Source of the DNA: Bacteriovorax sp. Seq25_V
GTDB taxonomy: Bacteria; Bdellovibrionota; Bacteriovoracia; Bacteriovoracales; Bacteriovoracaceae
Length of the DNA stretch: 64,000 bases
Reading direction: 5' to 3'
Assembly (NCBI RefSeq): GCF_000447795.1
Contig: NZ_AUNI01000014.1
Coordinates: 1-64,000 of the forward strand
Shown here: positions 5,075 through 48,590 of the stretch, one piece after another
How the letters are laid out: each line of letters opens with the position of its first letter
How positions within the stretch are numbered: position 1 is the first letter of the stretch
Position numbers and translations under genes: made by a program
Notes under the pieces: generated by a model
The model's database searches: none
What the model was told of the DNA's origin: nothing
What the model saw: only the letters and a program-made list of their open reading frames with translations

Positions 5075-5821
5075 ATGAAAAAACTCTCCCTATTAAAAAT
5101 ATTATTTCTTATCATTACTATCGCATTTGCAATTTACAGCTTTCAAAATTTCTACCTCAAACCAAAAAATAAAAAAATACTTTCTATCTCACCAGAGAAT
5201 ATTGAGAGAATTAAATCTAAAATGCTTCCAATAGAAAATCGTCCTCTCTCATATGACTTCAAAACAAACCAAGAAAATAAAAATGTAGATAGTGACAGTG
5301 AATATCTCGACGAACTCATCAAGCGCTCAGGCATCGACTACATCTCGCCAAAAGAAGGGATGAATATTCTCATGCTTGCGATTGAAGCGAATCGAGATGA
5401 CCTTTTTGAAAAATACCTCGATCACTTCAAAGATCTCGAATATAAAAATAATTTTGGAGCAACCGCACTCGTTCTTGCAAGCTCGGGAGGCGACATAAAC
5501 TTTGTGAAAAATCTTCTCAATAAAGGTGCCGATCCGAATGTGGAATTTAACAGAGCAAAATTCACACTTCTCATGGACGCGGCCATGGAAGGCAACACAG
5601 AACTCATCAGACTACTTCTCGCAAAAGGTGCTCGAGTCAACGATATCGACAACACAGGCATGACAGCACTTCTCTACGCAAGCAGAGAGGGACACACAGA
5701 AGTTGTTCGAATACTTATTGAAAACAATGCAGACAAGAGCGTACAAAATAAAAAGAAGATGAAAGCGATTGATTACGCCTATCTCTATAAGTTTGATGAG
5801 ATCATCTCAATTTTAAAATAA
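5075..5821 (+). CDS. Membrane-anchored ankyrin-repeat protein
   Basis: 248 residues: an N-terminal transmembrane anchor (about residues 7-25), a charged linker, then four to five ankyrin repeats from about residue 95 to the end. The repeats are recognisable by the G-x-TAL/L-x-A pattern (FGATALVLASSGG, TLLMDAAMEGN, GMTALLYASREGH) and the LL-x-KGA(D/R) turns. Ankyrin domains bind protein partners; no catalytic part is present. It starts 17 bp after dacB on the same strand and is probably co-transcribed with it, so a periplasm-facing scaffold linked to wall enzymes is a possibility, but that is only inferred from context. Confidence 0.85.
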   Translation: MKKLSLLKILFLIITIAFAIYSFQNFYLKPKNKKILSISPENIERIKSKMLPIENRPLSYDFKTNQENKNVDSDSEYLDELIKRSGIDYISPKEGMNILMLAIEANRDDLFEKYLDHFKDLEYKNNFGATALVLASSGGDINFVKNLLNKGADPNVEFNRAKFTLLMDAAMEGNTELIRLLLAKGARVNDIDNTGMTALLYASREGHTEVVRILIENNADKSVQNKKKMKAIDYAYLYKFDEIISILK

Positions 5822-5839
5822 AAATTGGGCCTTGATGTT

Positions 5840-5971
5840 AAAAAAACTGTAATGAAGATGTGAAATTGAGGATTTTGAAAGCACCAATTCTGATACCTTT
5901 ATAGGGGTTGGTTAAAGGTGGGATGAAGACATTTGCAATTTTCATCAAGGCCAGGACCAACCTGTTGTTAC
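5840..5971 (-). ncRNA. Candidate sigma-54-dependent small RNA
   Basis: There is no coding frame of note here. The minus strand begins about 10 bp downstream of a perfect sigma-54 promoter (5981-5997) and runs to a T7 run (A7 on the plus strand, 5840-5846). The expected transcript folds well: an outer 7-8 bp stem pairs 5906-5912 with 5956-5962 (GGTTGGT/ACCAACC), and an inner 6 bp stem pairs 5922-5927 with 5941-5946 (GATGAA/TTCATC), separated by an internal loop. Start and end are estimates; no tight terminator hairpin precedes the T-run, so the 3' end is the weakest part. It could alternatively be a long leader antisense to the 3' end of the ankyrin gene. No Rfam family was recognised. Confidence 0.4.
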
Positions 5972-5980
5972 TTATATATA

Positions 5981-5997
5981 AGCAAGAGGCGTGCCAA
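5981..5997 (-). promoter_or_regulatory. Sigma-54 (-24/-12) promoter
   Basis: Read on the minus strand the sequence is TTGGCACG-CCTC-TTGCT, an exact match to the RpoN consensus YTGGCACG-N4-TTGCW with GG and GC spaced correctly. It sits in an intergenic gap and points away from the cysteine desulfurase, toward the 3' end of the convergent ankyrin gene, so it has no protein-coding target nearby. Transcription should begin near 5971. An activator (enhancer-binding ATPase) would be needed; its site was not identified. Confidence 0.7.
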
Positions 5998-6129
5998 AAA
6001 ACTTGACTAGAAAAGTAACAAATAGGGCCAATGTGACATCTAAGATTGGGGACAAAAGAGAATTAACGTTATCTGTCAGCACCACGCATTGCGTCATTGA
6101 TTCATTTTTGGCTAAATTGTACCGAGAAC

Positions 6130-6285
6130 AAACTGCTCCAGATAAATGGGGATAACATTGGGACTTACCTTCGTTATAATAGATCTTTAGCCGCTAAATA
6201 TTTCAACTGCACAAAAAAATAGGATTTACTGCTAAGTAATTATTGAGTTTTCGAGCTTTCTATCCCCATTTAACTAAAGCAGTTT
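6130..6285. mobile_element. MITE-like non-autonomous element, about 156 bp
   Basis: A 156-bp segment bounded by imperfect 25-bp terminal inverted repeats. The left end (from 6131) and the inverted right end (to 6284) both start AACTGCT and both carry TAAATGGGGATA at the same distance; they differ at only 3 of the first 24 positions. Both ends share AACTGCT-N9-TGGGG with both ends of the IS1-like element at 41356-42393. The interior contains no open frame of note, so it would need a transposase in trans. No clear target duplication is visible. The right edge overlaps the TAA stop of the cysteine desulfurase. Confidence 0.6.
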
Positions 6286-7477
6286 ATTTGAGAAAACGAG
6301 AAAGAATCGAATTTAATTTGGGAGAAAGGGTTTGCGCCTCTTCCATTGAAAAACTATAAGGAAAAGAAATTCTAATTGAAGACTTTGCTTCTTCTTCAGA
6401 GTAACCCATGGCCAAAAGAACTCGACTTGGCTTAACTGCACCAGAAGAACAAGCAGAACCAGATGAAAGATCAATCTGTGCCATATCAAAGGCAGTAATT
6501 AAAATATCCGTCTTAGCACCATGAACGACGAGGTAAATAGTATTGAGATTTCTAAAATCTGCATCTGCGGCCGTTATTGTAATTCGTTCTTTAAAATTCT
6601 GAGTTAAAGAATTTTCAACAAAATCTCGCGCATCTTTTAATTCTTGTGGTTTGAAATTAGCCAGAAGCTCTACTAAAGCAAGCTTTAAGGAATAAATTCC
6701 ATGAACATTTTCTGTTCCAGATCTCATTCCGGCCTGTTGGCCACCACCACGAATGAGAGCGCACCAATGGATGAGTCTTTCTTTGGCAAAAGAAAAACCA
6801 ACTCCCTTCATCGCACCAAACTTATGGCCAGAGAAAGTATAGAAATCAATTTCACTATCAAGGTGAAGCGATGAATCTGTTTTACCAATAAGTTGAACGG
6901 CATCGACGTGAACAAAACAATTTGTTTCATTCTTTATTTTTGTTGCATCAGCAATTGGCCAAATAACACCGGTCTCATTATTAACATGCGTGAAATTCAA
7001 AAGAACATCACCATCTAATTTCTTAATATACTCAATCACTGAATTCAGATCGTACATACCATTACGATCGACGTTCATTGTGTGAAATTTTCCACCAAGC
7101 AATTCAATATGCTCTTTCTGGTTTACAACACAAGAGTGATCAGTCGCAAACGCAACGACATGAAAGTTTTCTTTCTTTGCTAAAGAATAAAAACAAAACC
7201 CTTTAATAACGTCGTTAATCGCCTCTGTTGCACCAGAGTGATAAAAAATTTCAAAGTACGGGAGATTAAAAGTTCTTTTAAGATAATCAGTCGTCTCATT
7301 GATAAGACGTTTTGATAATTTTCCAGACGAATGAATTGAACTAGGATTACCAAAAGGTAAAGCCCCTGAAGCAAACCAGTCAGTGACTGATTTAGCTAAA
7401 GGAGCTGTTGCGTTATAATCAAGATAGATTCTATTATTGATTAATTTCACCAATGCTTGTTCTAATTCCTGAAGCAA
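6284..7477 (-). CDS. Cysteine desulfurase, NifS/IscS type (PLP-dependent)
   Basis: Transfers sulfur from cysteine to acceptor proteins for Fe-S cluster or thio-cofactor assembly, in the cytoplasm. Seen: YLDYNATAP at the N terminus, the PLP lysine in SGHKFGAMKG, and the active cysteine loop in SSGSACSSG followed by the conserved RISF region. The longest frame starts at a TTG (7477) and overlaps the upstream iscR-like gene by 44 bp; a GTG at 7450 would give an N terminus closer to the usual one and still overlap, so the pair is probably translationally coupled. No iscU, iscA, hscA or fdx follows, so the acceptor cannot be named and I give no iscS/nifS symbol. The stop codon coincides with the edge of the MITE-like element. 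Confidence 0.85.
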   Translation of the reverse strand: MLQELEQALVKLINNRIYLDYNATAPLAKSVTDWFASGALPFGNPSSIHSSGKLSKRLINETTDYLKRTFNLPYFEIFYHSGATEAINDVIKGFCFYSLAKKENFHVVAFATDHSCVVNQKEHIELLGGKFHTMNVDRNGMYDLNSVIEYIKKLDGDVLLNFTHVNNETGVIWPIADATKIKNETNCFVHVDAVQLIGKTDSSLHLDSEIDFYTFSGHKFGAMKGVGFSFAKERLIHWCALIRGGGQQAGMRSGTENVHGIYSLKLALVELLANFKPQELKDARDFVENSLTQNFKERITITAADADFRNLNTIYLVVHGAKTDILITAFDMAQIDLSSGSACSSGAVKPSRVLLAMGYSEEEAKSSIRISFPYSFSMEEAQTLSPKLNSILSRFLK

Positions 7478-7988
7478 ATGCGCTCATTCCACCATCTGTA
7501 GTAGCAGTAGTTGCAGCATTGTTTGCTTGTTGTTGTGCTTTTTCAGCATTAATTCTTTCAACATCACCTTGTACTTCAGAAGATTTTCTAACTAGGTCAC
7601 CAAGAGAAGTTGTCGCAAGATAATCTCTCATGATAAAACCAAGGTTTTGAAAGTAATTCTTTGATAGGTGAAATTCAACTGTGTTTGCAGCTTCAGCTTC
7701 TGTTCCAACAATATCCTTTGCAGGATTAATGTTTTCTCCAACACAATCAAGAATGTCTTTTACAGTGATTTCATCCATGTTTCTAGATAAAACATAACCA
7801 CCACCTGGTCCTCTTACAGATTTAACTGCTTGACCATTTCTTAGCTTTCTAAAAAGTTGCTCTAAGTAATGTAGTGAAATGTTCTGTCTTTCAGAAATTT
7901 CCTGTAAACGAACTGGGTTTCCGTTTGAGTGAGTTGTAAGATCGAGCATTGCTCTAACTGCGTAACGTCCTTTAGATGTAAGTCTCAT
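7434..7988 (-). CDS. Rrf2/IscR-like transcription regulator lacking the cluster cysteines
   Basis: 184-residue winged-helix regulator; the first ~75 residues are very close to E. coli IscR (MRLTSKGRYAVRAMLD, ISLHYLEQLFRKLR, SVRGPGGGY). IscR senses Fe-S status through three cysteines between about residues 90 and 105. Here that segment (GENINPAKDIVGTEAEA) has none and only a single cysteine precedes it, so a cluster bound in the IscR manner is unlikely. The C-terminal ~40 residues are a low-complexity Ala/Gln/Thr tail not found in E. coli IscR. It heads a two-gene operon with the cysteine desulfurase, the standard place for IscR, so it probably regulates sulfur mobilisation by another signal. 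Confidence 0.85.
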   Translation of the reverse strand: MRLTSKGRYAVRAMLDLTTHSNGNPVRLQEISERQNISLHYLEQLFRKLRNGQAVKSVRGPGGGYVLSRNMDEITVKDILDCVGENINPAKDIVGTEAEAANTVEFHLSKNYFQNLGFIMRDYLATTSLGDLVRKSSEVQGDVERINAEKAQQQANNAATTATTDGGMSAFASGIRTSIGEINQ

Positions 7989-47549: not shown

Positions 47550-47566
47550 TTGGCACTGCTCTTGCT
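47550..47566 (+). promoter_or_regulatory. Sigma-54 (-24/-12) promoter for the 325-aa secreted protein
   Basis: TTGGCACT-GCTC-TTGCT fits YTGGCACG-N4-TTGCW with a single mismatch (T for the last G of the -24 box) and correct spacing. Transcription would start near 47576, about 37 nt before the ATG at 47613, where GGGGA provides a ribosome binding site. Confidence 0.65.
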
Positions 47567-47612: not shown

Positions 47613-48590
47613 ATGAAATTTAAAATGATCATCTCAACTCTACTTTTGGCATACGCCTTCCAAGGTCATGCCTCATCACTATCTTGCTCTATCCTAATTG
47701 ATGGTTTTGAAGCTGATGGCAAGAAAACTGTCTACGACCTTTCTAAGAGTGAGAAAGAGAAATATGATAAATGTGTTGATGGAAAAAAACTTCTTCCTAA
47801 TAAGTACAAAGCATTTGAAGAAAGAACCAAAGAGGAAGCACGTAAGCGTAAAGTAGCTTATAAAGAGGCCGAAGAAGATAAGGCCGAGCGTAAGAAAAAA
47901 GAAAAAATTAGAGAGTCTCGTGAGGAATATACATTCTCGGGCGGAGAACTTGAAGAAATGTTTAATAAGCCAATCTTTGCTTATCGTTTAGCAGCTAGAG
48001 TTGGTTTTGCCGATAAGATTGAAGGTCTTCATCATAAGCTTGATAAGCTAACAGATATGGAAGAACTATGTAAGCATATTGGTAAAGAAAATGGGATCGA
48101 CGGTATGCGCGCTAAAGAGGCCATTCTTGACACTAAGAATGGACGTGCAGAAGTTAAGAGACTTAGCAACCAAGGTGTTGTGATACCAGACTCATTCTTT
48201 ACAACTTATGAGTTATTTGAAACATCTGATAAAGATATTAAGAAAATGAAAAAAGATGGTTCTCGCGCAATTAAGATTCTAGAATTTTCTGAGATTACTT
48301 GTGTGGCCAACTCAAATAAGAAAGATGACTTTGATGACTTATCACCAAAGTTAACATTAAGAACGAAAACTGGAAAAGAGATTGATGTTGACCCTTCAGA
48401 AGATGAATTTGTTATCGACGACACTCTTGATGAAGGACAGAGTAGAACTCGCGATATCTTCGCAGGAAATGATGAAGACCTAAGCGATGTTGAAAGAATG
48501 GATACAGGAAGTGAAGTTGACCTTATCCTAAGAACGACAACTGGGGACTATGGAAAATCTCGCCCAGTACAAAGAGTAATCATTAAATAA
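47613..48590 (+). CDS. Secreted charged protein under a sigma-54 promoter
   Basis: 325 residues with a signal peptide (MKFKMIISTLLLAYAFQGHAS). The mature protein has two cysteines near its N terminus and a third, a long Lys/Glu-rich helical stretch (about residues 75-110), then a mixed region ending in an Asp/Glu-rich beta-like part (LTLRTKTGKEIDVDP, VDLILRTTTGDYG). No domain recognised. Followed by a strong terminator; single-gene transcription unit starting at the sigma-54 promoter. Role unknown, but its regulation suggests it is made under a particular signal. Confidence 0.8.
   Translation: MKFKMIISTLLLAYAFQGHASSLSCSILIDGFEADGKKTVYDLSKSEKEKYDKCVDGKKLLPNKYKAFEERTKEEARKRKVAYKEAEEDKAERKKKEKIRESREEYTFSGGELEEMFNKPIFAYRLAARVGFADKIEGLHHKLDKLTDMEELCKHIGKENGIDGMRAKEAILDTKNGRAEVKRLSNQGVVIPDSFFTTYELFETSDKDIKKMKKDGSRAIKILEFSEITCVANSNKKDDFDDLSPKLTLRTKTGKEIDVDPSEDEFVIDDTLDEGQSRTRDIFAGNDEDLSDVERMDTGSEVDLILRTTTGDYGKSRPVQRVIIK

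Follow-up and report, generated by a model that had tools for sequence, protein, structure and literature searches.

A predicted family of sigma-54-controlled small RNAs with a pseudoknot and a GAAU hairpin in Bacteriovoracaceae

The locus and its sigma-54 promoter

The window analyzed here, a 64,000-nucleotide stretch of the Bacteriovorax sp. Seq25_V genome, contains an intergenic gap flanked by a plus-strand gene for an ankyrin-repeat protein (5075–5821; Pfam Ank_2, 4.4e-26) and a minus-strand iscS-like gene (6284–7477; Pfam Aminotran_5), with an iscR-like gene (7434–7988, minus strand; Pfam Rrf2) behind the latter. The minus strand of this gap reads TTGGCAC-GCCTC-TTGC at positions 5997–5982, which is the exact sigma-54 -24/-12 consensus (TTGGCAC-N5-TTGC, with the GG-N10-GC element at the correct spacing); dinucleotide shuffles of the window yield an expectation of 0.01 such sites. 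Thus, the original prediction of a perfect minus-strand RpoN promoter is confirmed, and the promoter indeed faces no gene, the next one in its direction being the convergent ankyrin ORF. The iron-sulfur gene pair lies upstream of the predicted RNA on the same strand. The genome from which the window comes encodes RpoN itself (PF04552 match, E 1.3e-65). A second exact sigma-54 site, TTGGCACTGCTCTTGC, is located on the plus strand of the window at 47550–47565, about 50 bp ahead of an ORF at 47614 with a signal-peptide-like start (MKFKMIISTLLLAYAFQGHA...).

The RNA predicted downstream of the promoter is about 155 nt long (minus strand, 5970–5815), with the start set 12 nt past the -12 element and the end set at a U-tract; a covariance model of the homologous transcripts (R2, described below) matches 5808–5973 with an E-value of 3.0e-22. 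Placement of the 3' end is uncertain, given that a short hairpin following the closing stem P1 is predicted in many homologs as well. The RNA had been proposed to end at a T7 run (5846–5840), but the 3' strand of the main stem (5837–5828) and a U-tract (5824–5815) lie beyond that run, so that an interval terminating at 5840 loses half of the main helix. The U-rich tail (CAAUUUUUAUUUU, 5815–5827, minus strand), a likely terminator, has T-rich counterparts after P1 in most homologs.

Fold and conservation of the RNA

A DNA search identifies copies of the whole promoter-plus-RNA unit, 69–76% identical, in three other genomes, and a first covariance model, built from four sequences, retrieves further full-length copies across Bacteriovoracaceae. 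The 33 transcripts aligned with promoters left out (hereafter, class I) display a single architecture that consists of the closing stem P1, a pseudoknot that crosses it, and the hairpin P2 (all window coordinates are for the minus strand). P1 joins the 5' region to the 3' end; in the window, its 5' strand GGCCUUGAUG (5943–5952) pairs with CAUCAAGGCC (5828–5837), and double changes are found in 9 of the 12 alignment pairs. The pseudoknot, GGUUGGY/RCCAACC, is represented in the window by GGUUGGU (5956–5962) and ACCAACC (5906–5912), with 97.4% of the cells paired and with compensatory changes. P2 (5878–5899) carries a GAAU loop (5887–5890) that is invariant in 33 of 33 homologs, whereas its closing pair varies among the sequences (C-G, A-U, G-C or U-A). 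The hairpin is located between two C-rich motifs: AUCCCACCUUUA at 5913–5924, a candidate seed or protein-binding site with the consensus AUCCYACCU in the 33 homologs, and the weaker UUCACAUCUUC... at 5846–5864, where the column logo of segment J4 contains an invariant CU.

Over the 28 pairs of this fold, 87.0% of the cells are paired compared to 74.5% in shuffled alignments, and 143 cells show double changes compared to 46.8 ± 7.0 after shuffling, a value reached in none of the 500 shuffles; controls with slid partners give 28–50 such cells. The predicted P1, pseudoknot and GAAU hairpin are all backed by compensatory changes. By comparison, single-sequence folding of the window RNA is not significant (z -1.37), and the exact nested stems of 7–8 bp and 6 bp that had been drawn from the window turned out to be wrong. 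Given this z-score and the lack of Rfam matches, the claim of a non-coding RNA rests on comparison of homologs. An RNA on the plus strand was considered and rejected (folding z -0.18).

The transcript-only model R2, from which promoters were excluded, finds matches in 41 of the 129 Bacteriovoracaceae genomes with E-values of 1.1e-10 or lower (E-values of such home-made models are rough), a single copy in each except for a tandem pair in one genome (G056). This prevalence of about one third is a lower bound because some of the genomes are incomplete. Among 369 genomes of the phylum, no hit beyond the family had an E-value better than 0.007. Seven strong hits within the same threshold (L178–L183 and L076) were held out, and a -24/-12 element is correctly placed in all seven; among five hits with weaker E-values, from 4.5e-6 to 0.0044, the promoter is good in two (L185 and L187), imperfect in one (L188) and missing in two (L184 and L186). 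Promoter and stems are both kept among the homologs in the family, that is, in the close relatives where the original prediction called for them. Tandem arrangements of class I loci are represented by L054 (G056:C114:5301 and 5611) and L064/L218 (G021:C4:295534 and 295774). At several class I loci, the iscR-iscS pair recurs upstream and a gene for an uncharacterized protein of about 215 amino acids is found downstream, an arrangement that appears to be the ancestral setting of the RNA gene.

A second RNA class and the upstream palindrome

Some of the weak hits of the class I model represent a different RNA on the same theme. This class II has the same type of promoter, a GAAU hairpin and C-rich motifs but lacks the pseudoknot, and a search pattern that combines the promoter, TCCYAYC and GAAT yields additional loci. 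Six aligned copies share a long closing stem beginning with AGCU and the GAAU hairpin, with 95.1% of the cells paired and 38 double-change cells compared to 14.0 after shuffling. The corresponding model, R3, detects 15 loci in 11 genomes of the family (E of 4e-8 or lower) and nothing outside Bacteriovoracaceae at 0.005. A -24/-12 element is present in all 9 of the R3 loci outside the training set, some of which have an AAAU loop in place of GAAU. The two classes occur together in two genomes (G044 and G047), and the genome of the window has class I only.

A motif search over 40 class I upstream regions recovers a 17-bp palindrome, approximately GGggCCAAATTGGccCC, with the best score of 1567 compared to 498 for shuffled sequences. 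The palindrome has 76 matches compared to 2.6 in shuffles, and most of these start 60–140 bp ahead of the -24 element. Bacterial enhancer-binding proteins (bEBPs) usually bind 60–140 bp ahead of the -24 element, or about 80–150 bp before the transcription start, and the palindrome fits a putative site for such a protein. In the window, there is one candidate site (GATGTCACATTGGCCCT, 6024–6040, minus strand), which is closer to the promoter than in most relatives. Because the motif matrix was trained on the same class I promoters, only its application to class II is an independent test. The matrix matches all 15 of the class II promoters, compared to 2 of the 13 other sigma-54 promoters that served as controls (one control, itself a class I locus, was removed from this set), which makes a single activator common to both classes likely. 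A dyad, TGACGCxxTGCG (6085–6096, TGACGCAATGCG), was also considered as the activator site on visual inspection and rejected, being present in only 4 promoters, those of the window and of three other class I loci; the 17-bp palindrome is the better candidate. A strict composite pattern of palindrome plus promoter is too strict and retrieves one locus only, in G055.

At several other loci, L200 (G068:C3), L203 (G105:C209) and L187/L202 (G072:C55), the sigma-54-driven RNAs also combine C-rich motifs with a GAAU hairpin but are divergent; these fit neither class model well and possibly represent further classes. There is also a third, unrelated family of short sigma-54-driven transcripts (L072 at G000:C20:336309, L067, L071, L081 and L199), with the layout GTGTGTGTG-GGAG...AAAAAGGATTTTTTC...TGTCTCTC and, after this, a strong terminator; this family is found in at least five Bacteriovoracaceae genomes including that of the window.

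Predicted mode of action and relationship to known small RNAs

Computation thus recovers a promoter, an upstream motif and a fold whose joint conservation extends over about 25 genera. Given that these elements are kept while the neighboring genes change, a sigma-54-driven small RNA, as originally proposed, is the best reading of the locus. With a probability of roughly 75%, the minus-strand segment 5970–5815 is predicted to be a stand-alone non-coding RNA controlled by sigma-54 and a bEBP and most likely acting in trans independently of Hfq. We infer that the locus is transcribed when a bEBP binds the palindromic upstream sites, whereupon RNA polymerase with sigma-54 would produce the RNA of about 155 nt. 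By bringing together the 5' region and the 3' end, the long-range stem would close this RNA into a ring, and the pseudoknot would lock its 5' end into the interior, so that the GAAU-capped hairpin would be displayed between two unpaired C-rich motifs of the UCCYACCU type. The presence of these two motifs around the hairpin suggests that they either base-pair with G-rich ribosome-binding regions or form a site for a protein. In both cases, the RNA would most likely act in trans without Hfq, through pairing of its C-rich motifs with G-rich translation-start regions or through a protein that recognizes the GAAU hairpin. By either route, a signal sensed by the bEBP would be converted into post-transcriptional control. 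A search for antisense targets (AGGTRGGAT ahead of ATG) identifies no recurrent gene, and most of the sites are not true gene starts; as this simple search gave no result, antisense pairing and protein binding are put at similar odds.

The strongest rival is that the RNA serves chiefly to bind a protein or to act as a decoy for it, comparable to GlmY with RapZ or CsrB with CsrA. The GAAU hairpin would then form the protein site together with the pseudoknot, and mRNA pairing would be incidental. This is a plausible but less favored explanation. It agrees with the combination of an invariant GAAU loop and a freely variable stem sequence, with the retention of this loop in most class II RNAs, and with the failure to find recurrent antisense targets. 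It is also in line with the result that no PF17209 (Hfq) match was detected in the window genome; the same search was positive in 5 of 14 control genomes. The single-stranded C-rich motifs are conserved too, however, and a CsrA sponge in particular is unlikely because the window RNA contains no GGA triplet.

Action in cis on the convergent ankyrin gene, as an antisense RNA, a terminator element or through transcriptional interference, is improbable. The U-rich 3' end of the RNA does overlap the ankyrin stop codon (5819–5821), and in genera g1 and g16 a related ankyrin gene adjoins the class I element with related overlaps. Elsewhere, the next gene differs, encoding a response regulator, the uncharacterized protein of about 215 amino acids or a MarC-like protein, or lying on the same strand, so that nothing is constant apart from the RNA and its promoter. 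Since the neighbors vary or converge, the RNA is not the leader of one conserved gene. It is highly improbable that the locus encodes a small protein of 35–40 codons. An ATG frame of 35 codons is indeed present in the window (5946 to about 5838), contrary to the original statement that there is no coding frame, but the frame is not conserved: among the 33 homologs, the frames (8–51 codons) differ in start and length and have unrelated products, and substitutions preserve base pairs. A chance promoter match next to an unstructured spacer, which the modest z-score by itself would allow, is refuted by the conservation, the covariation and the held-out tests and hardly merits consideration.

A search of Rfam with the window and 20 homolog loci, at gathering and at permissive thresholds, detects nothing relevant; a narK match stays at 14.5 bits, below the cut-off of 43.2, and reflects only the shared sigma-54 promoter. 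Neither the window nor the homologs match the Rfam covariance models of GlmY/GlmZ or Qrr, and membership in these families was rejected. The Qrr RNAs of Vibrio, which are driven by LuxO and sigma-54 and sometimes occur in several copies per genome, are similar with respect to sigma-54/bEBP control but depend on Hfq, for which the genome of the window yields no match. RsaE-type small RNAs have C-rich seeds with the motif UCCCC. The two C-rich single-stranded motifs described here, with their potential for pairing with G-rich ribosome-binding regions, are reminiscent of these seeds, but the motif is UCCYACCU, the phylum and the fold are different, and the target pairing is putative. The small RNA GlmY is transcribed from a sigma-54 promoter that is activated through upstream sites by the enhancer-binding protein QseF/GlrR (PMC6075780), and GlmY and GlmZ are two related RNAs that function in one circuit with the protein partner RapZ (PMC7073468). 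The present RNAs resemble this system of Enterobacteriaceae in being predicted sigma-54/bEBP-driven small RNAs and in comprising two classes, but share no sequence or covariance-model similarity with it and differ in fold, upstream motif and phylum. The Pxr RNA of the predatory soil bacterium Myxococcus xanthus, also presumed to be expressed from a sigma-54 promoter, is about 108 nt long, forms three stem-loops and adjoins nla19 (PMC5568312); membership was rejected here as well, given that the window RNA has a predicted long-range stem and pseudoknot and adjoins iscS and ankyrin or other genes. In Bdellovibrio bacteriovorus, the attack-phase RNAs include three with FliA promoters and merRNA with a c-di-GMP riboswitch, and no conservation of these was found outside Bdellovibrio (PMC3627812). 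These are likewise stand-alone non-coding RNAs of a predator from the same phylum, whereas the matches to the class I and class II models are confined to Bacteriovoracaceae. Thus, on the best reading of these comparisons, the family is new: it shares the sigma-54 small-RNA logic of GlmY, Qrr and Pxr but belongs to none of them. In agreement with the original prediction, no RpoN-dependent RNA described in this group was found in Rfam or in a literature search of limited coverage, which also returned no publication dealing with Bacteriovorax small RNAs.

The Bacteriovoracaceae include known bacterial predators, and few regulatory RNAs are known in the wider group to which they belong. Tentatively, one dedicated bEBP might switch a small regulon that consists largely of the GAAU-hairpin RNAs of both classes, which would act jointly without Hfq, perhaps via a dedicated RNA-binding protein, and set a phase of the life cycle. 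The promoter, the activator-type site, the fold and the distribution are predicted precisely enough to be tested simultaneously, and the two apparently co-controlled classes with their common GAAU hairpin would offer a handle on RNA regulation in bacteria where Hfq is not detected.
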